Shown in pieces: positions 5,335-21,200 of a stretch of 64,000 nucleotides of DNA (the stretch's first letter is position 1; every line of letters begins with the position of its first letter). Where the stretch lies: contig MSJI02000600.1 in the NCBI GenBank assembly GCA_001931905.2, positions 1-64,000 on the forward strand, in the 5' to 3' direction. Position numbers and translations under genes: made by a program. Below the pieces are notes generated by a model. The model saw only the letters and a program-made list of their open reading frames with translations, was not told the origin of the DNA and ran no database searches. The DNA comes from Cladosporium sp. IMV 00045. Lineage: Eukaryota > Ascomycota > Dothideomycetes > Cladosporiales > Cladosporiaceae.

Positions 5335-5985
5335 TTACTTCCGATCCTGCTGTGCACCGATCAGAACCTTGGCCTCTGCCTTGGCCTGTTCTTTCCTCTC
5401 CATCTCCATTAGCTTGTCCACGATCTCCTCTTTGATGTTCCCAAACCCATCCTTCCGACTCAGCACCTCAGCAACCCATGATTCGATCTCTTCGTCTGCA
5501 TCCGTCTCTCCTCCATACACATCGAACCCAACGCCCTTCCGCACCTTCTCTCGCAAATCCTCTATATCGGCGATGTCATAGTATATGAAGCCCGCGCCGA
5601 TCGCAATCATAAATACGGACACCGTATTCATAGTGGCAAGACCCAGGGCCTCAATTGCGTCCAGCCCTCCCTCAGCTTTCGGTGGAGGTGCATTCGAAGG
5701 TGTGAATTTGGTAGGTACGGGCGGGCGCTTGCGGATGAGTGAGCGGCGCGTTACCCATGCGCTGAGCATGGCGAATCCTAGACCTCCAAAGAAGAGAGCA
5801 TTCTGTCTGCGGAATCGTCTGGCCGGGTCTATACGTTCCACCGCTGCTGAGGTGGTAGAAGGTTTGATCTGGTCTTGTTGGAGCTGGTTCTCGGGATGTT
5901 CGCTTGGAGGTGGAGGTGGAGGTGCGAGTGCTCGGCGACGAGCGCGTAGGTCGCCAGGAGCGAAGTAGCGGTCCCAGAGAGACAT
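5335..5985 (-). CDS. AIM11: Aim11 family mitochondrial membrane protein
   Basis: A single-exon protein of 216 residues. It has a Pro-rich N-terminus, then RRFRRQNALFFGGLGFAMLSAWVTRRSLIRKR, a first membrane helix followed by a basic cluster. A second helix lies around NTVSVFMIAIGAGFIYYDIADIEDL, followed by a charged C-terminal tail. This arrangement (FFxGLxFxxLSxxVTRR, then a second helix ending near YYD) matches the fungal Aim11 family. Yeast Aim11 was named from a screen for altered mitochondrial inheritance, and its biochemical role is not known. The C-terminal tail ending in QQDRK is soluble and Lys/Glu-rich. Confidence 0.85.
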   Translation of the reverse strand: MSLWDRYFAPGDLRARRRALAPPPPPPSEHPENQLQQDQIKPSTTSAAVERIDPARRFRRQNALFFGGLGFAMLSAWVTRRSLIRKRPPVPTKFTPSNAPPPKAEGGLDAIEALGLATMNTVSVFMIAIGAGFIYYDIADIEDLREKVRKGVGFDVYGGETDADEEIESWVAEVLSRKDGFGNIKEEIVDKLMEMERKEQAKAEAKVLIGAQQDRK

Positions 5986-6802
5986 GTAAGCGAGCGTAGT
6001 CTTTGAGTATCAAAGTGGGTGTTGTTTGTATATCAGTGTCCAAGGGTCTGTTGCTTTGATTGCTTTAGCTTTGGAGCCTGCCAACATCCGAGGTGGGCTG
6101 ACTGACTGGCTAGCCCTGGTGTTTCACTTCCCCAGATTGCGCTTGCATCGGCAAGGGCGAGGCCAGCGAGTTGGACCTCGCGCCTACCTACTCTCCATCC
6201 GTGCTGCTGCGCCTTGGACTCAACATCCAATAACAACACCCATCACCCTCTCATACCATCACTCTGAACCTCACCGCCTGTGTACAACAGTCACATCCGG
6301 ACGACTCTCATCCTCTGTTTGATGCTCACGCACTATATTCGTCTAGAAGAGCCGGGACAAGGCTGGAGAGCAAGGGAAGACAGGGATTCACTTGCACTTG
6401 AATTGAAAGACGACGGGATACTACACTACACTACACTACACTGCACTGCACTGCACTGCGATCAGAGGCCTTACATTTTTCATTCATACCTACAATTGCC
6501 GCTCTGTCTGCGAGCTCTGTTTCTATCCTTTGTACACTTCGCTTCTGTACGTATTGACCATGGCACGGGCGCATCATATACTTGAGGAATCATGGCGGGA
6601 ACGGCGGCGATTGGGAACTCTCTCCTTTTTCTATTGTACTTATTCTGACAAAGCTTGATTCAGACCTCGCATCGCGCGGAGCAGAGTGTACATATACTCA
6701 GAGACAGAAACAGGACGGCGAGCCATTAGGCACATTGACGTAGTCAGCCTATACACCTCTAACTCGTTGGCACTGCCCTAGCGCGGCTTGGACCTTCACA
6801 TC
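5986..6802. other. Divergent promoter region with pentanucleotide repeat
   Basis: About 800 bp between the divergent AIM11 and CPSF6-like genes. It holds the pentamer repeat at 6421-6460 and otherwise no recognised gene. The open frames here (6026-6322, 6280-6585) lack family features and are probably chance. Confidence 0.55.
6421..6460. repeat. Pentanucleotide microsatellite (CTACA)4(CTGCA)4
   Basis: Eight pentamers in a row: four CTACA followed by four CTGCA-type units, the last ending in CTGCG. It lies about 340 bp before the start of the RRM gene, probably in the promoter or 5' leader. Confidence 0.9.
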
Positions 6803-6873
6803 ATGTCTGGCGAGGACGATAACTTCGATATCGATATTTATGGTGACGAAGAGGAAGCACAGCCGCAGCAGCC

Positions 6874-6904
<31 letters not shown>

Positions 6905-8065
6905 AAGGAGCAAACGCAAGAGTGCGACGACTTTGATTACAACTACGAAGAAACGCAGGAACAGCAGAACAACACAGACAACAATGGCCAAAACCACGCC
7001 TCTAACGGCAACGACGCAACGAACAATCATGAGGCTTCACAGCCTCCCGCAGCAAAAATATCTGCCGTTCCACAACAGAACCTCAAACGCAAAGCACCAG
7101 ACGACGAGCCCGAAGAACAACAACCACAACGCCCATCCACCAGCCAAAACCCCGTCGCCGCCGACGGCCGCCCACTAGACCCAGGCGCCCTCCCCGCGCT
7201 CAAACTCTCCGAACTCCACTGGTGGACAACAGAAGAAGACCTACGCGCCTTCTGCGCCGCAGCCAACACCGAGCCGGAGCTCCGCGAAGTCGCTTTCGGC
7301 GAACACAAAATCAACGGCAAGAGCCGCGGCGAGGCATACCTAGAATTCACATCTCCGGCAGCAGCGACCGCCACCAAACGCGAAGTCGAGCGCATGAATG
7401 CCGAGAACGCGGCGAAAGAACCGGGCACAGGCCCCAAAGACAAATTCCAAGCCTGGTACACGCAAGTCGGCAATCCCTACCGCGGCAAAGACGGCGCGGT
7501 GGGCGACAAGAAATTCGGCGGGCAGGCGGGCAAGTTCAACAACCAGGGCGGCGCGTACAATAACAATTACCAGGGCCGCGGCAATTTCGGCGGCGGGCGC
7601 GGAAACTACAATCGCGGTGGAGGCTTCAACAACAATAACAACAACATGATGGGTCGCGGCGGTGGCAACCAGAACCAATGGGGCATGAACGGCGCCGCAG
7701 CAGCGGGTTTCACCAACCCCATGATGGCCGGCTACGGCAACATGTACGGCAACATGGGCTACGGCGGCAACAACATGATGGGAGGCGGCCGCGGCGGCAT
7801 GATGAACGGCATGATGGGCGGTGGCGGCCGCGGCGGTTTCAACGGCATGAATATGGGTATGGGCGGGATGGGAGGGATGGGGATGGGGAATATGATGGGC
7901 GGGTTGGGGAATATGGGCGGTATGGGGATGAACGCTGGTGGAGGTGGAGGTAGAGGCGGAGGAGGAGGTATGATGGGCCGTGGTGGTGGTGGTGGTTGGG
8001 GCGGTGGAGGGATGGGGATGGGTGGGTGGGGTGGGCAGGGGAACAAGAAGCCTAGAATGGAGTAG
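6803..8065 (+). CDS. RRM protein resembling CPSF6, with poly-Gln and Gly/Met/Asn-rich tail
   Basis: The protein, 420 residues from the ATG at 6803, begins with an acidic SGEDDNFDIDIYGDEEE segment and a poly-Gln tract. A single RNA-recognition motif follows at about 130-200 (LKLSELHWWTTEEDLRAFC ... GEHKINGKSRGEAYLEF). The WWTTEEDL signature is the one found in CPSF6/CPSF7 of cleavage factor Im, which binds mRNA 3' ends before polyadenylation. After the RRM the protein becomes a long low-complexity tail of Gly, Met, Asn and Arg (RGG-like repeats, GNMGG, GMGMG) ending NKKPRME, a likely nuclear signal. The upstream in-frame TTG at 6788 is not used in this model. CPSF6 orthology is inferred from the RRM. 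Confidence 0.85.
6860..6904 (+). repeat. CAG/CCG triplet tract coding poly-Gln
   Basis: An in-frame run of mostly CAG triplets with two CCG interruptions encodes a Gln-rich tract (QPQQPQ followed by about 11 Gln) within the RRM protein's N-terminus. Pure triplets at the 3' end make it a candidate for length variation between strains. Confidence 0.85.
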
Positions 8066-8687: not shown

Positions 8688-8912
8688 CTAACGCAGCTGA
8701 AAAGGATGCGCTCCGTAGTGTAGAAGGATTTGTGCGATGTCTGAATAGCCACGTTCAACCGCCACAGCAAGCATGGTCGTTCCATCGATACTTCTGAGAT
8801 TCGCGTCCGCTCCCTGATATAGGAGTAGACGAACATTGCCCGGGTGATTGTGTTCAATCTCCATGGAAAGGACGCTCAAACCGTCGGAGCCTCTAGAGTT
8901 GACGTCCGCTCC

Positions 8913-9506
8913 TTTGTCCAGAAGCATTTGCACCATCGAGCGATGCCCATGTTTAGATGCCTTGGAGAGTGCAGTTTCGGTATGATCATCATGTACATTG
9001 ACATCGGCTCCGCCACCAAGCAGCATTCGCGCAATATCCTCATGGCCCAGCTCACTCGCATGATGAAGCGCCGTGTAGCCCTTGTCATCTTGAAGATTGA
9101 TCTGCGCTCCTTTGTCCAGAAGCATTTGCACCATCGAGCGATGCCCATGTTTAGATGCCTTGGAGAGTGCAGTTTCGGTATGATCATCATGTACATTGAC
9201 ATCGGCTCCGCCACCAAGCAGCATTCGCGCAATATCCTCATGGCCCAGCTCACTCGCATGATGAAGCGCCGTGTAGCCCTTGTCATCTTGAAGATTGATC
9301 TGCGCTCCTTTGTCCAGAAGTATTTGCACTATCGCGCGATGCCCATGTTTAGATGCCTTGGAGAGTGCAGTTTCGGTATGATCATCATGTACATTGACAT
9401 CGGCTCCGCCACTAAGCAGCATTCGCACAATATCCTCATGGCCCAGCTCACTCGCATGATGAAGCGCCGTGTAGCCCTTCTCATCTTGAAGATCGATCTG
9501 CGCTCC
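8913..9506 (-). repeat. Three 198-bp tandem units coding paired ankyrin repeats
   Basis: Units at 8913-9110, 9111-9308 and 9309-9506. The first two read as identical over 198 bp. The third differs at about seven positions. Each encodes 66 residues, that is two ankyrin repeats (cores such as KGYTALHHASELGHEDI and TETALSKASKHGHR). Exact period and near-identity point to recent unit duplication or gene conversion. Flanking ankyrin repeats are far more divergent. Confidence 0.95.
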
Positions 9507-10903
9507 ATTGTCTATGAGCACTCGCACGCATTTGCTGCTATTGGTCAAGGATGCGCTGATGAGTGCGGTATGCGATTCCTCATCCTTTGCGTCGAGGTTG
9601 ATACTATACGCCAGCAGTAGCTGAACGATGTCGTGGCGATCGTACAAGACAGCATGGAACAACACCGAGACGAGGTCTAAGAACCTTAGCAACGATCTCA
9701 GGACCTCTTCGTGGCCTGGAATAGCTGCGTCTTCGAGAGCAGGAAGAGCAGAGCTGCACAGCTGTGCAGCAACAAACCGATTCGCCAGAATTATCTCGAG
9801 TATATCAGCGTTCCCTTTTTGGATCGCCGCTCTTAGATTGCTTTCTGGATATGGAAGGCCGCGAACGGCTGCCGTGGGATGACCGAACAAGCAGCGTACC
9901 ATTGCAGGGTTGCCCTTCCTGACTGCCCAGAACAAACAATCTTCGTCGTTGTTTGCGATAGAGTGGGGATTTGCACCGCGCTCAAGCAGCATGCTGACCA
10001 AACGATCGTCACCAAAATTTACCGCTGCACCAAGCAAGGATCTATGTTGCTCATGAGCCATGTACTTATTGAGCTGGTCGTCCGTGATGGAGTGCTCAGT
10101 CAGCGTGCGAGCACCCATAAGAGCAAAAATGTAGCAATGCGTTACTTCCTTGCTTAAGCGATGGGCATGGTATCTGGTGGTGAGATTGTAAAGCTTTGAC
10201 CAGAGTTTGCAAGGGAAACCGATAATGAAGTCGCCCTGTATTAGACCGGCACAACAAGCCGAGTCTGCATGTGATATAAGGCCAGCCAAAGCATAACCAA
10301 GGAATGGATGTGTGGTCTTTGTGCGTGCCTTGAGCTCTTCACAAGCTTGAGCGCGGCTATCAAGATGGTCTTTCAGGCCGTCCGTTGGTGAGGGAAGCAA
10401 GACAGGTTCGCATCTCGTCAAGTAATGGTGGCAGCAATCTTTGAGTCGATCATGGCAAGATCCGCTCAGGTTACTGGGCAGATCAGGATCCAGAACCTTG
10501 AGTCCGGATTCGAGTAGATAGTCTCTCACGGACTCATGGATGAACTGAGTAGTGGGTTGCTTTCCTTTACTCATTTCCGCCAGGCCCCTGGAGGAGTCCA
10601 GAATGAACCTCTCCATATCTTTTGTGCTGACCTCGTCAGGATCCCAAGCTTCTATGGTTTCTTCATCCATGCTAGTTGTAACAGCAAAATACAGCTCTTC
10701 ACGCTTCAAGGGACGTTGGGCGAATAATAGCCATTGGAACGTCAGAAGAACGGTCTTTCTGTCACTGTCATCAAAAGAGTCTCTCTGCAAAATCCTTTCG
10801 AATAACTGATGCAGGTCTACTGGAAGTTCTCTCAAGCGAGCCTTAAGCTGGGAGACCCTGCCCTGTGATTTGGCCTTGTTGAGGATTCGGATCACAAGGA
10901 CTA

Positions 10904-10907
10904 CCCC
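10904..10907 (-). other. Frameshift site in a four-base homopolymer
   Basis: The CCCC run (GGGG on the coding strand) is where the NACHT frame (…SGIFLW) and the downstream frame (VVLVIRILNK…) meet. Removing the effect of one G aligns both to the continuous segment expected in fungal NACHT proteins. No good splice donor or acceptor brackets the site. Confidence 0.8.
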
Positions 10908-11778
10908 AAAGAAAGATACCAGAAGCCTTCCGCTGTATTTCGTCTCTGATATCTTGAGCCGCTTTTGAAGTGCCAATCTGCAGTTTGTTCCTTGTGTAGT
11001 CTGCAATGTCCAGCTCGTGACCCTCTTGTCCGTCAAGGATCAGCTCTAGGCAGCTTTTGATCATGATGTGTGGATAGTGGCGACTCGATAGAAGTACACG
11101 GAAGCCGACGTGCTTCTCCATTGCCAACTCACTTAGAGTCTCAAAGAACTCGATCATGTCTTGTGCTTCGTCGTCTTGGCATTCATCAAGCGCATCCACG
11201 TAACATGTGAGTTTCGTCGAGCCCATCGCCATCACAGCTTCCCGGAACATGTTCTTGAGTTGTTCGACATGCCAGACACGCTGATGACCTTGCTGGCCAA
11301 TGTTAAGCTCCATCGCTGGCAGGCCAGGCACTTCTCTCAAGAGTTGATGCAACAGTGAGCGGTACATCCCCTCTGCACATCGCTGGAGTTGCGTACCTCT
11401 CGCGTTGAAGAAGAACGAGACGATGGCATCTTCCTTGAAGACACGCATGCCATGGTCGTAGGCGACTTTCATGACTGTCGACTTGCCCGCGCCCGGCTTC
11501 CCTTTGATCCAGAGGAATCCTTGGTGACTGCGCATGTCGCTTTTGTCCTGCCAAATTTTGTACTTTTCCGTCTTGAACAGCCAACGGCACGTTTTGGGAT
11601 AAGCCGAACTGATTGTGCTGTAACGCTCATCCATCTCGTCGAACAAAAGTGCCTCCCTAAGTCCCGTGGCAGTGTCCGGGGCCTGCCCTTGGGCTTCTGC
11701 TTGAGGTACTGGCGTAGATGTAGACGGTTGCGGATACACATTGTATGTGTTGTTGGTAGTGTTGGACGCAGTGTTGGT

Positions 11779-11850
11779 GTTGGTATAATTACCGTACACA
11801 TTACGAGAGTTGCCTTGTGCTGTAGCGTTTTCGTAACGGTTTCCTAAGCG
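11779..11850 (-). other. HET-s-related amyloid-like motif (R0) in the receptor N-terminus
   Basis: Residues 40-63 of the receptor contain the core QGNSRNVYGNYTN preceded by RLGNRYEN. The core follows the pattern [AS]-[RKQ]-x-x-[YLI]-G-[ND], which fits both HET-s repeats (ARVQLGN and SRVLIGN) and both motifs of the neighbouring HET-S-like protein (AKVLYGN and SQAQYGD). In characterised systems such an N-terminal motif templates the amyloid fold of the HeLo partner. The function here is inferred. Confidence 0.7.
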
Positions 11851-11967
11851 CGGCGGATCAATGTCGAGTCTTCGCCTTTTCGCTGGAGGACCATCTACGC
11901 TGTCATCCTCGGCAAGCTCTTGATTCACACCGGATGCAACGACCCGGTTGAATACCGGTGCGCTCAT

Positions 11968-12556
11968 GTTGTGAGGGCGCTGAATGTTTTGATTTAGGCT
12001 GGTGTGCAACCTGAGACAAGTACAGACTCCCCTTAGCCTCGCCGTGCGATTTGGAAGTCAGACGCTCGTCAGTATCAGGCATAGATGTCTCAATCGGGTG
12101 GCGTCAGCCAGACAGAAATAATCTCGAGTGCTCGCATGAGACAGTAAAGACTCCCCTCAGCCTCGCCGTGCCAACGTGGAGCAAGATGCTCATAGATGTA
12201 AGCAGAGGCATCGCTCAGGTGATGTCAGCCAGATGGGAGTACATAGCAAGTGCTTGCATGAGGCCGCCGCACCAAGTCGCGGCCTAGCCGCTCGCTTATA
12301 TCGTCTTGCATGAAGCTGGGCCAGCGCCATGCAGAACCCCCAACCAATCGATCAGATGATCGGCCGTCTAAGCCTTGCTGTACACGGCGGCAGACAAGCT
12401 GAGCCTTGTATGTGCAGAGAAGTGGGAGATGGTATATAATAGGCGCAGAGTCTCTTTCGTCACCAGCAGTGTACTCAAACTGCAAGCATTGTGATCAGCG
12501 GAATCTGTTAGCACGATTTATTAATCTAAGTTGCAAGCATCTCGCAAGAAGTCGGA
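11968..12556. promoter_or_regulatory. Shared divergent promoter of receptor and HET-S-like genes
   Basis: 589 bp between the two ATGs. It holds an imperfect tandem duplication (12024-12262) and a TATATAAT at 12433-12440, about 117 bp before the HET-S-like start. A shared control region would allow co-expression of receptor and effector. That is inference from layout. Confidence 0.5.
12024..12262. repeat. Imperfect tandem duplication in the divergent promoter
   Basis: Copy one, 12024-12140, starts AGACTCCCCTTAGCCTCGCC. Copy two, 12148-12262, starts AGACTCCCCTCAGCCTCGCC. Both also share a GTCAGCCAGA element and end with a GCATGAG. The offset is 122-124 bp, with scattered substitutions and small indels (I judge about three quarters identical). 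Confidence 0.8.
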
Positions 12557-13545
12557 ATGGCTGAGCTAGCCATCGGTGCCGTTGGTCTAATCGCTCTCGA
12601 AAGCACGGTAAGCTGAAGCTATCTATATCGTCCAGACCTAACACAGTGCAAGTCTAATAATCTTCAAGGTGGACAGCTTCTTCACCAAAGCCTCAACATG
12701 GAGACACTATGGCAAAGACTTCGAGCAACACGCCCTGTCGCTCGACCTGGCAAGCATCGCCTACAAGAGATGGAGGAAAAGCGTCAAGCTCATGGATGGC
12801 ACCGCTGAAGCACACGTCGCGAAAATGACAGTCGCTTCTGAAGAAGAAGCGTCCACTGTCGTGAGGCTCCTGGGTACCATTCAGCTGGCCTTTCAGAATG
12901 CCGAGAAGACCATGGAGCGGTACGCTGGCGATGAACCGGCAGTGGCGCCGAACGCAACGTCGAACGAGCTTGCCGCCAGAGTGGATGCTGTGAACAAGGC
13001 TCGCCAGTCCAACGCGAGCGCATTCCAAAAAGCGCGTTGGGTCTTCCGCGATGCGAAATCTTTCAGGGAGCTTGCCGAGTAAGAGATAGACGTACTCAGA
13101 GTGAGACTGTAGGCTAACGTCTCTCAGGACCGTATCACGCAACGTTGATGGCTTGATCAAAGTCTTTCCGCCAGCGATCCAAAAGATCCAAGAGCAGCTG
13201 GCCGCAGTGGACCTCGAAGCCATAGTGCCACCCGCCTCTGCCGCTACCAACCCAGGAGTGCTCACAGCGGAGAGGTCTGATTTGAGCAAGGTCCGCGACG
13301 CCGCCGCCAGCATTGACCCGATACTGCAGCAAGTGGCAGATGAAGAGATTCCGCAGGTCGGCTATAGACACCGGTACGAGCACAATGTCTCCGACGTAAC
13401 CGCAAAGGTGCTCTACGGCAATCAGATCCATGGGGATTTTGTCCCAAGCGGACCTGGCCATGTATACACCGGGAACGAGGCTCGTGGGAATTCTCAAGCC
13501 CAGTATGGCGATTTGGTCAATCCGACGCGTGGTTTTTGGGATTAG
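12557..13545 (+). CDS. HET-S-like protein: HeLo domain plus C-terminal prion-type repeats
   Basis: Three exons (12557-12607, 12669-13078, 13128-13545) encode 292 residues, close to the 289 of Podospora HET-s/HET-S. The N-terminus MAELAIGAVGLIALEST is hydrophobic and small-residue-rich, like the HeLo segment that inserts in membranes. It is followed by YGKDFEQHALSLDLA, equivalent to FGRDYERCQLRLDIA of HET-S. KSFRELAETVSRNVDGLIKVFP matches the end of the HeLo fold. After a linker come two motifs: about 240-259 (core AKVLYGN) and 265-284 (core SQAQYGD). The protein ends RGFWD, like the KGFWDN end of HET-s, whose aromatic residues fold back on the amyloid core. In HET-S the prion domain forms a beta-solenoid that turns the HeLo domain into a membrane-disrupting cell-death executor. 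Divergent neighbour: the NACHT receptor with the same motif. Whether this allele is HET-s-like or HET-S-like in activity cannot be told. Confidence 0.9.
13381..13545 (+). other. C-terminal amyloid-repeat region of the HET-S-like protein
   Basis: Codons 239-292. Motif one has core AKVLYGNQIHG, motif two HVYTGNEARGNSQAQYGD, then NPTRGFWD to the end. The spacing of the aligned core residues is 30 (A246 to S276), against 36 in HET-s, so the linker between the repeats is shorter. Gly, Asn and alternating hydrophobic residues fit a two-repeat beta-solenoid. Confidence 0.75.
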
Positions 13546-18200: not shown

Positions 18201-21200
18201 CGAACTTGCTACGCTCGTGGACTTGGACGTGAGTTTCAACTCTATCTCTGACCTGGGCGACATCAGCAATTTTACGAACCTCGAAAGACTCTGGGCTACG
18301 AACAACCGACTCGCTGGCCCGCTTCACGGGTCATTTGCCAACCTCACAAATCTCAAGGAGATTGATGCGCGCTTCAATGGTATCAACAACATGGATATCG
18401 TGTCTCAACTGCCCAAGTTGGAAATGCTAATGCTCGGACACAACTCCATCTCCGCCTTCGAGGGATCCTTTTCGCGACTCAAGGTCCTGTATCTCAACCA
18501 CAACCCTGTAACACGTTTCGACCTTAATTCCCCCGTGCCAACGCTTTCCGTACTTAATCTGGCTTCGGCGAAACTTTCACAATTACCTGACGCATTGTTC
18601 ATGAAGATGTCGAATCTTACGAAGCTCACGATCAGCAAGAATCACTTTGTATCGCTTTCACCGCACTTTGGCAATCTATCAAAACTGGAGTATCTAAGCA
18701 TCGCAAAGAATGAGCTCAATCGGATGCCAGCAGAGGTCGGTAGGTTGACCGAGCTGAGATATCTCGATGTGCGTGAGAACAACTTGGACCGCCTGCCCCC
18801 AGAGATCTGGTTCGCGAAGCGCCTCGAAACACTGAACCTGTCCTCCAACGTCCTCAGCGAATTCCCCAAGCCGGGTAACCCATTACCTGCCTTGCCGGAA
18901 TCGGCAGGTACAACGCCTCAACAGACTCCTAGCATGGGCTCTAGTCAAGAGTTCGAAGATGTGGGCAAGTTGGAAGACTTCGCTCTGCGCCGTCCGAGCC
19001 AGGCGTCGGGAATGCTCAGCGTGTCTAGCTCGCCGGGAGCAGCTTCTCGAAAGGGTTCTGTCGTCTCGCACTCTTCCCAGAAGATGGGCGGCATTGGTCG
19101 GACTAATACTGCGTCCAGCATGCAAACCATGACACCTCAGAACAGGAAGGACTCAACGCTTTCTAGCAAATTGGCGGCTACGTTCTCGACTTCGCTGAGG
19201 CACTTGTTTCTTGCAGACAACAGACTTGAGGATGATGTGTTCAATGAGCTGGTCTTGCTTCCTGAGCTGAGGATTCTCAACCTCTCCTACAATCAACTAT
19301 ACGATATTCCACCTCGTACCATCAAGCGTTGGACGCACCTCACGGAACTCTACCTCTCAGGCAATGATCTCTCATCCTTACCGACGGAAGACCTTGAAGA
19401 GGGTTCTTCGCTCAAAGTCCTGCACATAAACAGCAACAAATTCCAAGTCCTACCAGCGGAGCTGGGTAAAGTGCAGAAACTTGCAATCCTTGACGTTGGT
19501 AGCAACATGCTCAAGTACAACGTATCCAACTGGCCTTACGACTGGAACTGGAATTGGAATCATCAACTCCGATACCTCAATTTGTCTGGCAACAAACGCC
19601 TCGAGATCAAACAGACGCCCAACGCCGCGAATGGACGTGAGTCTAGGGACCTCACGGATTTCTCTTCGCTGGTCAACTTGCGCATCCTTGGTCTTATGGA
19701 CGTGACGTTGACGATCCCCTCAATTCCGGACCAAGCGCCTGACCGCCGTATCAGAACGGCAGGCTCAGTCATTGGGACTAGTATGCCCTATGGTATGGCC
19801 GATACTCTGGGACGCAATGAGCATCTCTCCACCCTCGACATGGTCGTTCCTCGCTTCCGAGGACACGAAGCCGAAACGCTCATCGGTCTTTTCGACGGAC
19901 AGTCCCTCTCCTCGGGTGGAAGTCGTGTGGCCAAGTACCTCCACGAGAAGTTCAAGCACGTTTTCAGCGAGGAGTTGGAGAAGATCAAGTCTGGCGAGAC
20001 GCCTGTCGATGCGCTCAGGCGAACCTACCTAGGTCTGAACAAAGACCTCGCCACGGCTGCCATGCAAGCCATCAATGAGAGGGAACATCCCGGCAGCGCG
20101 CTCGTCCACCGAGGTAGCGTCTCGGGCCCCGAACTGGGAGACGATGACATGACCAGCGGTAGTGTCGCTACGGTCATGTATCTCCACGGGATGGAGCTGT
20201 TCATGTCGAACGTGGGTGATGCGCAGGCGCTGCTGATTCAATCGGAGGGCGGACATCGTGTCATCACACGCAAACATGATCCTGCAGAGTCGCTAGAGAG
20301 GCAACGCATTCGCGAGGCGGGTGGCTATGTTTCCAGACAGGGCAAGCTCAATGACCAGCTGGATGTCTCAAGGGCATTTGGATTTGTGCAACTCACGCCT
20401 TGTGTGATTGCTGCACCGCACGTTGTGCAGGTCACTCTGAAGGAGTCTGACGAGATGATTCTTCTGGCTTCGCGTGAACTGTGGGACTACCTCACGCCTG
20501 ACTTTGCTGTCGATGTCGCGCGCTCGGAGCGTGGTGATCTGATGCGTGCGGCGCAGAAGCTGAGAGATCTCGCCATCGCTTTCGGCGCCACAGGCAAGAT
20601 CATGGTCATGATGATCGGCATCACGGATCTGAGGAAGCGCGAGCGCGCAAAGGTTCGCACGCACAGCATGAGTATGGGACCATCCGGCTCACCACCGCTC
20701 GACTACTTCAGCGCTGGCCGCAAAGGCAAGCGTGGTAGGGAGAACGTCGGCGACTCCAAACTCGCACGTCTCGACCAGGAAGTCGACGCCCCCGTTGGCG
20801 ATGTCACATTGGTCTTCACCGACATCAAGAACTCGACTATCCTTTGGGAGACATACCCCATTGCCATGCGTTCTGCCATCCGCATGCACAACGAAGTCAT
20901 GCGCCGCCACCTCCGTATCATCGGTGGATACGAAGTCAAGACCGAAGGTGACGCTTTCATGGTCGCCTTCCCTACCGTCACCAGCGCCCTGCTGTGGTGT
21001 TTCACCATCCAATCCCAACTCCTCGAAGTCCAATGGCCGCAAGAAATCCTCTCCTCCGTCCACGGCGACGAAGTCCAAGACGCCGACGGCAACGTCATCT
21101 TCCGCGGCCTCAGCGTTCGCATGGGAATCCACTGGGGCCAGCCGGTGTGCGAAGTCGACCCCGTCACCAAACGCATGGACTATTTCGGGCCCATGGTCAA

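Follow-up and report, generated by a model that had tools for sequence, protein, structure and literature searches.

Whether two divergent neighbouring genes in a fungal genome form a cell-death pair, in which a receptor would trigger an executor through a shared amyloid motif, and whether that executor answers to its neighbour alone, are the questions raised by a locus of Cladosporium sp. IMV 00045. The window analysed is the whole stretch of 64,000 nucleotides at positions 1 to 64,000 of contig MSJI02000600.1 (assembly GCA_001931905.2, 49.87 Mb in 954 contigs), in which a HET-S-like executor gene lies beside a gene for a NACHT-ankyrin receptor. Judged from its sequence, the locus is very probably an amyloid-signalling cell-death pair of the HET-S/NWD2 type and of the HRAM class, and the direct observations behind this reading are the domains of both proteins, a layout of two motifs in the executor and one in the receptor, divergent adjacency in two copies of the locus, and HeLo, NACHT, and r0 sequences kept by purifying selection. 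Contigs of this genome are designated by C-numbers, the pair in the window being the C597 copy and its duplicate the C906 copy.

The executor and the receptor

A preliminary description of the window had placed a HET-S-like gene with a HeLo domain at 12557–13545 and proposed a profile search as a check, and this search does find the domain. Exon 2 of the executor matches PF14479 (HeLo) in Pfam with an E value of 6.6e-15 (55.9 bits, cut-off 23.2), and in the PDB the executor sequence directly matches the HeLo structures of HET-s/HET-S (2wvq, 2wvo, and 2wvn; best E 2.6e-8). Residues 1–22, encoded by exon 1 and the first part of exon 2, show moderate hydrophobicity, with a mean hydropathy of at most 1.56 over 19 residues, and would fit a membrane-inserting helix, as expected. 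The C-terminus consists of two 21-residue repeats, r1 and r2.

Pfam likewise recovers the receptor described at 8688–11967, through NPHP3_N (2.6e-32) and ankyrin repeats (5.2e-75), the NACHT family itself scoring below its cut-off (1.1e-4). The layout of a single N-terminal motif (r0), a NACHT-type domain, and superstructure repeats is present, with ankyrin repeats in the place of WD40 repeats of the NWD2 type. The two genes are indeed divergent neighbours sharing a promoter region, as had been proposed, with their ATG codons at 11967 and 12557, 590 bp apart. This region carries direct repeats at 12019–12067/12143–12191 (78%) and 12083–12112/12204–12233 (73%), and the region of the C906 locus (stretch L007) carries one at 5346–5436/5470–5560 (74%). 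A scan for bacterial-type promoters and an NCBIfam search gave nothing useful for the pair.

For the mechanism beyond gene anatomy, we rely on the precedent of HET-S/NWD2 (PMC4518210, PMC3321046, PMC5485727, PMC9815663, PMC4986451, and PMC12881547; all papers are cited here from the portions of their text that were available). By analogy, the ankyrin domain of the receptor would bind a non-self or danger ligand and NACHT would drive oligomerisation, so that the clustered r0 motifs could fold into a beta-solenoid. This solenoid would serve as the template for the C-terminal repeats r1 and r2 of the HeLo protein, and the HeLo domain would expose its hydrophobic N-terminal helix and permeabilise the membrane.

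A predicted amyloid motif shared by executor and receptor

The three motifs r0, r1, and r2 can be aligned without gaps, with glycine 19 invariant. The executor tail aligns to the receptor N-terminus with a score of 44 in the window and 45 in C906, above all 2000 shuffles in each case, the best of which scored 43 and 44, one point lower than observed. For r1 against r2, 15 of 2000 shuffles equalled or exceeded the observed score in the window, and none of 2000 did so in C906. Window r0 is nearer to r2 than to r1 (8/22 vs 6/22 identical residues), and in C906 identities with both repeats tie at 6 and the score prefers r2 (39 vs 27); a closer likeness of r0 to r2 has also been described as a tendency of HRAM1 and HRAM4 in the available text of PMC4518210. 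Across the four executor repeats of the two copies, glycine 19 is present in all four and R/K occupies position 15 in three (Q in window r2). Among the positions that HRAMs tend to keep hydrophobic (5, 8, 10, 16, and 18), 5 and 18 are tyrosine throughout, 16 reads V, A, A, A, and 10 reads S, A, A, V. At position 11, the two repeats of each copy carry opposite charges (D/R and E/R).

A position profile was built from 27 motifs and run over a background of 707,272 six-frame positions. Motif sites, training members included, score 24.0–57.8 bits, and the maximum elsewhere is 10.6 bits. Scored with relatives left out, the 27 training motifs reach 16.3–47.4 bits, those of C656, C199, and C222 being lowest. 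The sites outside the training set score 46.0 (C841), 42.9 (C4), 39.0 (C492), 37.6 (C912), 33.8 and 32.2 (C637), 30.3 (C900), 25.5 (C852), and 24.0 bits (C2). Against 177,635 PDB sequences, the HET-s(218–289) structures 2kj3, 2lbu, and 2rnm come out on top with an E value of 2.5e-4, both repeats being aligned, and a profile of all 36 motifs finds the HET-s prion domain at 2.1e-4. In a comparison of profiles, the motifs of the pair match those of other receptors with 97.2% probability, the latter set having been collected by likeness. A HeLo look-alike lacking the motif is ruled out by the profile and shuffle tests, and a motif likeness arising from common low complexity is ruled out by the background maximum.

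Several points weigh against a HET-S/NWD2-type pair. The window receptor is interrupted, its coding sequence lying in two overlapping frames, 10843–12009 and 8688–11036. Charge pairing is found at just position 11 of the six positions reported (4, 6, 7, 11, 12, and 13), and each of the four executor repeats has a polar residue at position 8 (N, N, N, S), where HRAMs usually have a hydrophobic one. Taken singly, the HET-s repeats reach E values of just 13 and 1.1 with the 27-motif profile, the match being the sum of the two, and HET-s was missed in the PDB at E 10 with the 28 receptor motifs minus this pair and with the six motifs of the pair alone. The PDB support for HET-s likeness is thus profile-dependent, two of four motif profiles giving the match; PDB searches with the receptor N part and with a two-row exon-3 alignment yielded nothing useful. 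Finally, the family PF11558 (HET-s 218–289) has no match in the executor tail and none over its cut-off genome-wide. However, in the 2015 survey (PMC4518210, in the text available) it matched just 38 of 155 HRAM proteins and is therefore not a required HRAM feature.

The frame break, which may be real or an assembly error, also bears on the claim that the pair is complete. This claim stands for C906, whose receptor reads through without interruption for 1072 codons counted from the first TTG (1058 from the first ATG), and is less well supported for the window copy. With the receptor frame of the window copy broken, the window executor may be driven by the open receptor of C906 or by other motif receptors of the genome.

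Table 1. Coordinates of the pair and its elements in the window.
Feature	Position	Strand	Details
NACHT-ankyrin receptor gene	8688..11967	-	Pfam domains; frame broken within 10843-11036 in window copy
Ankyrin array of 198-bp units, head-to-tail	8907..9512	-	3.1 copies, 98% matches; tandem repeat in window copy
NPHP3_N/NACHT-type nucleotide-binding domain	11080..11592	-	PF24883, 115.2 bits; 2.6e-32
Receptor motif r0 (one copy), N-terminal to NACHT	11776..11847	-	Profile 46.7 bits (35.0 excluding relatives)
Shared divergent promoter region	11968..12556	.	Partial duplication spaced 121-124 bp; also in C906 locus
HET-S-like executor gene	12557..13545	+	Three exons (12557-12607, 12669-13078, 13128-13545); introns 61 and 49 nt; 292 aa spliced
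Exon 2, HeLo domain core	12669..13078	+	PF14479 and PDB matches
Amyloid-motif repeat r1, glycine 19 conserved	13363..13434	+	24 codons; profile 41.6 bits (24.3 excluding relatives)
Amyloid-motif repeat r2, then aromatic C-terminus	13453..13524	+	Profile 47.9 bits (37.7 excluding relatives)

The duplicated locus and the selection on its parts

Whether the two genes adjoin elsewhere had also been put forward as a check, and in the second copy of the locus, on C906, they are again neighbouring and divergent, with gene order and orientation kept. Identity between the copies is 90–92% in the flanks and 81–82% in the pair. The HeLo domain, NACHT, and r0 are under purifying selection, as shown by ratios of nonsynonymous to synonymous substitution rates (dN/dS) between the copies of 0.11, 0.08, and 0.11 (the last over 27 codons); the ratio of the executor tail is 0.73. 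In amino acids, the tail is 48% identical between the copies vs 90% for HeLo (Fisher p 1.3e-11), the ankyrin part is 43% identical, and the block of homology at the DNA level ends at 10168. The synonymous rate dS is 0.44 in HeLo and 0.71 in the receptor N part, and 0.15, 0.18, 0.24, 0.28, and 0.35 in five flanking frames. For the flanks, 21 rows were computed and the five frames with a dN/dS of at most 0.13 were used, rows inside the pair, in overlapping wrong frames, or otherwise doubtful being left out (e.g., 408–950 with dS 0.54 and 20706–21179 with dS 0.22). A conserved neighbour at 6788–8065 of the window, glycine-rich and RNA-binding-like by eye, is 96% identical between the copies and offers a useful anchor.

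Two other readings of the locus draw on these values. In the first, the genome being duplicated, the window pair has lost its function wholly or by half and the C906 copy is the working one, which the broken receptor frame and the fast-changing tail would suggest, together with other interrupted motif receptors and executors (C171, C687, C2, C43, C851, and C637). Nevertheless, the HeLo gene of the window is open, the ratios of HeLo, r0, and NACHT (each one value for both copies) are low, the break may lie in the assembly, and P0125, from other data, is related to the window HeLo exon at 99% over 47% of the query; such decay appears unlikely. In the second, the locus is an allorecognition (het) locus whose copies were old alternative alleles joined by hybridisation, the tail and the ankyrins carrying specificity. 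The dS of the pair exceeds that of all five flanking frames, and protein identity is low in the tail and in the ankyrin part. However, the evidence comes from a single locus, the flanking rows are a selected set, the synonymous rate of the ankyrin part (1.9) approaches saturation, and faster mutation or conversion would look alike; a het locus is considered rather unlikely.

Relatives and known systems

In a search with the receptor, 8000 candidates were scored, 4205 fell under E 0.001, and the best 120 were examined. Most of the 4205 matches are likely owed to NACHT and ankyrins alone, and the motif is present in 16 among the 120 matches listed, the next best score being 6.8 bits. One of the 16 is from Cladosporium fusiforme (P0002), with 46% identity over 98%. 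For the executor, a single-sequence search gave four relatives and an alignment search 17, with query coverage of at most 54%, in line with exon fragments. A HeLo relative (P0128, 72%) and a motif-bearing NACHT-ankyrin relative (P0012) both have a longest contig of 7053 bases, which hints that they share a contig and may be adjacent in a third assembly.

As described in the text available, HET-S/NWD2 of Podospora anserina has the same arrangement of a HeLo executor with two C-terminal repeats and an adjacent divergent NACHT receptor with one N-terminal motif. The Cladosporium system differs in that its receptor carries ankyrin rather than WD40 repeats, its motif has diverged past PF11558 and is polar at position 8, and the other motif receptors of the genome are many and unlinked. 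The HeLo/NLR pairs with motifs HRAM1–5 (Daskalov, Dyrka, and Saupe 2015, PMC4518210) share with it, as far as their available description goes, a size below 310 residues, the 2+1 layout, glycine 19, R/K at 15 (in three of four repeats here), an aromatic C-terminus, and adjacency, which was found in 98 of the 155 HRAM cases of that survey. Histidine at position 3, present in three of the four repeats, recalls HRAM3 as given there, but position 8 is polar.

Two further systems, likewise known from partial text, resemble this locus on the receptor side. The sigma system of Nectria haematococca (sesA/sesB/het-eN, PMC3321046) combines a NACHT-ankyrin receptor with motif-bearing effectors, although its motif and effector domains are different. 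In the HRAM/NLR12 system with PNP_UDP effectors (PMC9815663), receptors outnumber effectors, at a mean of 5.7:1, and are often non-adjacent, but the effector there is a single-motif phosphorylase and here a double-motif HeLo protein. Ankyrin repeats are listed among the receptor repeats of such pairs in a 2012 paper, and NACHT-ankyrin proteins among prion-motif proteins in a 2014 paper, in the portions seen. There, ankyrins are tied to the sigma motif, and the combination of HeLo, HRAM, and ankyrin is not stated as such.

Since prion-motif ankyrin receptors are already in print, the pair adds to a known kind, bringing a further fungus, with an ankyrin receptor, under a signalling principle that is already well described. 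The suggestion in the preliminary description of a new pairing within a known principle is accordingly kept in part: ankyrin receptors of such pairs are published and 16 of the 120 receptor matches listed carry the motif, and the HeLo–HRAM–ankyrin combination is not spelled out in the available texts. Judged by titles and the beginnings of abstracts, no literature was found on this pair or on a HeLo hub serving many receptors in a duplicated fungal genome. What is less usual is the number of scattered receptors with related motifs, the matching tail being seen just in this executor and its duplicate.

Motif-bearing receptors and candidate executors in the genome

The genome was covered for motifs by two tail searches, two receptor-motif searches, and one exact DNA pattern. 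In total, 32 genes with an r0-type motif were found, comprising 26 of the 34 receptor N-termini that best match the C906 receptor, together with genes on C852, C492, C900, C841, C912, and C4. The motif is absent from the remaining eight N-termini (C503, C685, C155, C154, C61, C763, the second on C199, and C730). Among the 32 motifs, glycine 19 is invariant, and an aromatic residue at position 5 (30/32), H/Q at 17 (29/32), and arginine 15 (28/32) are widespread. NPHP3_N lies just downstream of the motif in C841, C912, and C4, and the motif gene of C492 is NB-ARC-like by eye. Frames of at least 741 codons run through motif and NACHT in 17 motif receptors (eight directly, nine by combined data). 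The exact DNA pattern occurs at 18 places (seven in the backward control), which correspond to 11 known sites, two new receptors (C841 and C912), and five non-motifs. On C900 (L056 1510–1581), the motif is followed by sequence that is ankyrin-like by eye and the contig lacks an NPHP3_N match, possibly marking a decoy or a broken receptor.

Candidate executors are fewer. PF14479 gives six HeLo places in the genome, on C597, C906, C637, C420 (two), and C852, and just C597 and C906 have a double-motif tail in an open frame; genome searches with the executor tail found just these two locus copies and a receptor at E 0.4 and 0.3. The third HeLo gene, on C637, is followed by two repeats with Q18 in different frames (L012 5548–5619 and 5643–5714), and this executor looks decayed. 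Within the stretches read, the HeLo proteins of C420 (511 residues and a 528-codon frame) were rejected as members of the system, with a best profile score of 7.5 bits at their loci, as was the HeLo gene of C852, which has no motif tail in the stretch read and a kinase-like continuation by eye. That same contig carries a motif-bearing NACHT receptor (L011 3218–3289) divergent from the HeLo-kinase-like gene (C852:27241), an arrangement resembling MLKL-like layouts. Contigs with PF17111 (HeLo-like) do not overlap those of the 32 r0 genes, and in the tails of four of its 15 matches the profile detects no HRAM, scoring 1.1 bits at best. PF01048 occurs at four places, none on r0 contigs.

These counts raise the possibility of a many-to-one network, in which numerous unlinked motif receptors all act through the HeLo protein and its neighbour is just one of them. 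The contrast between 32 r0-type genes and double-motif open-frame HeLo genes at C597 and C906 alone points in this direction, as do the distribution of PF17111 and PF01048 and the scores of 23 of the 32 r0 motifs, which are higher against the C597/C906 repeats than against those of C637 (eight lower, one tie); one effector with different NLRs has been proposed, in the text available, in PMC5485727. However, executors whose head domain is of another type may have escaped the few tail, motif, and pattern queries by which the genome was covered, and the 23-to-8 count is tilted towards C597/C906, which enter it with four repeats against two for C637. Moreover, the r0 motifs are diverse, as the low scores of C656, C199, and C222 indicate, and discrete HRAM classes may not cross-seed, while short contigs make the lack of an executor on the contig weak evidence for some receptors. 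Such a hub is thus possible, though somewhat less probable than its opposite.

One pair of receptors bears on how connections in such a network might change. The receptors of C687 (L054) and C2 (L053), taken as duplicates by sequence likeness and not by mapped synteny, show identities of 82% on the upstream and 83% on the downstream side of the motif; within it, just 5 of 21 residues and 60% of bases agree (p 8e-6 against 82%, for a pair picked from 11). In the eight other clear pairs, the motif is conserved about like the downstream flank or more (mean difference +0.04), the more distant pairs C281/C851 and C146/C550 being left out of this mean. With its Q18, the C2 motif resembles the C637 repeats, which also give it its highest score. 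C687/C2 is likely a natural motif swap in what is likely a duplicated receptor pair, and C2, C687, and C637, whose frames are interrupted (an intron being possible for C2), look like a second channel that decayed.

Tentatively, and with a little less assurance than for the hub itself, about thirty dispersed receptors, mostly NACHT-ankyrin, may share one HeLo executor present in two copies. Their wiring would change by motif replacement, as in C687/C2, with C2 matching the decayed C637, and in a duplicated genome the loss of a receptor frame next to an executor that stays intact could defuse cross-triggering between parental sets. If many unlinked receptors do seed one executor, amyloid signalling would amount to a many-to-one immune bus. 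Plant helper networks are a comparable many-to-one immune arrangement. With 32 natural motifs, one executor, and a natural motif swap, the idea of one effector for different NLRs, as worded in the available text of PMC5485727, would become directly testable.

Two further groups of genes were noted in the course of these searches. The receptors of C503, C685, C155, and C154 (L023–L026) share the same N-terminus over the stretch read, without the motif, two of them lying at the same place near contig starts, which may reflect recent multiplication or assembly redundancy. In addition, NPHP3_N on the minus strand and PF17111 on the plus strand are divergent at C627 47593–49285, C882 38864–40554, and C385 75432–78882, and these are possibly further pairs with another motif.

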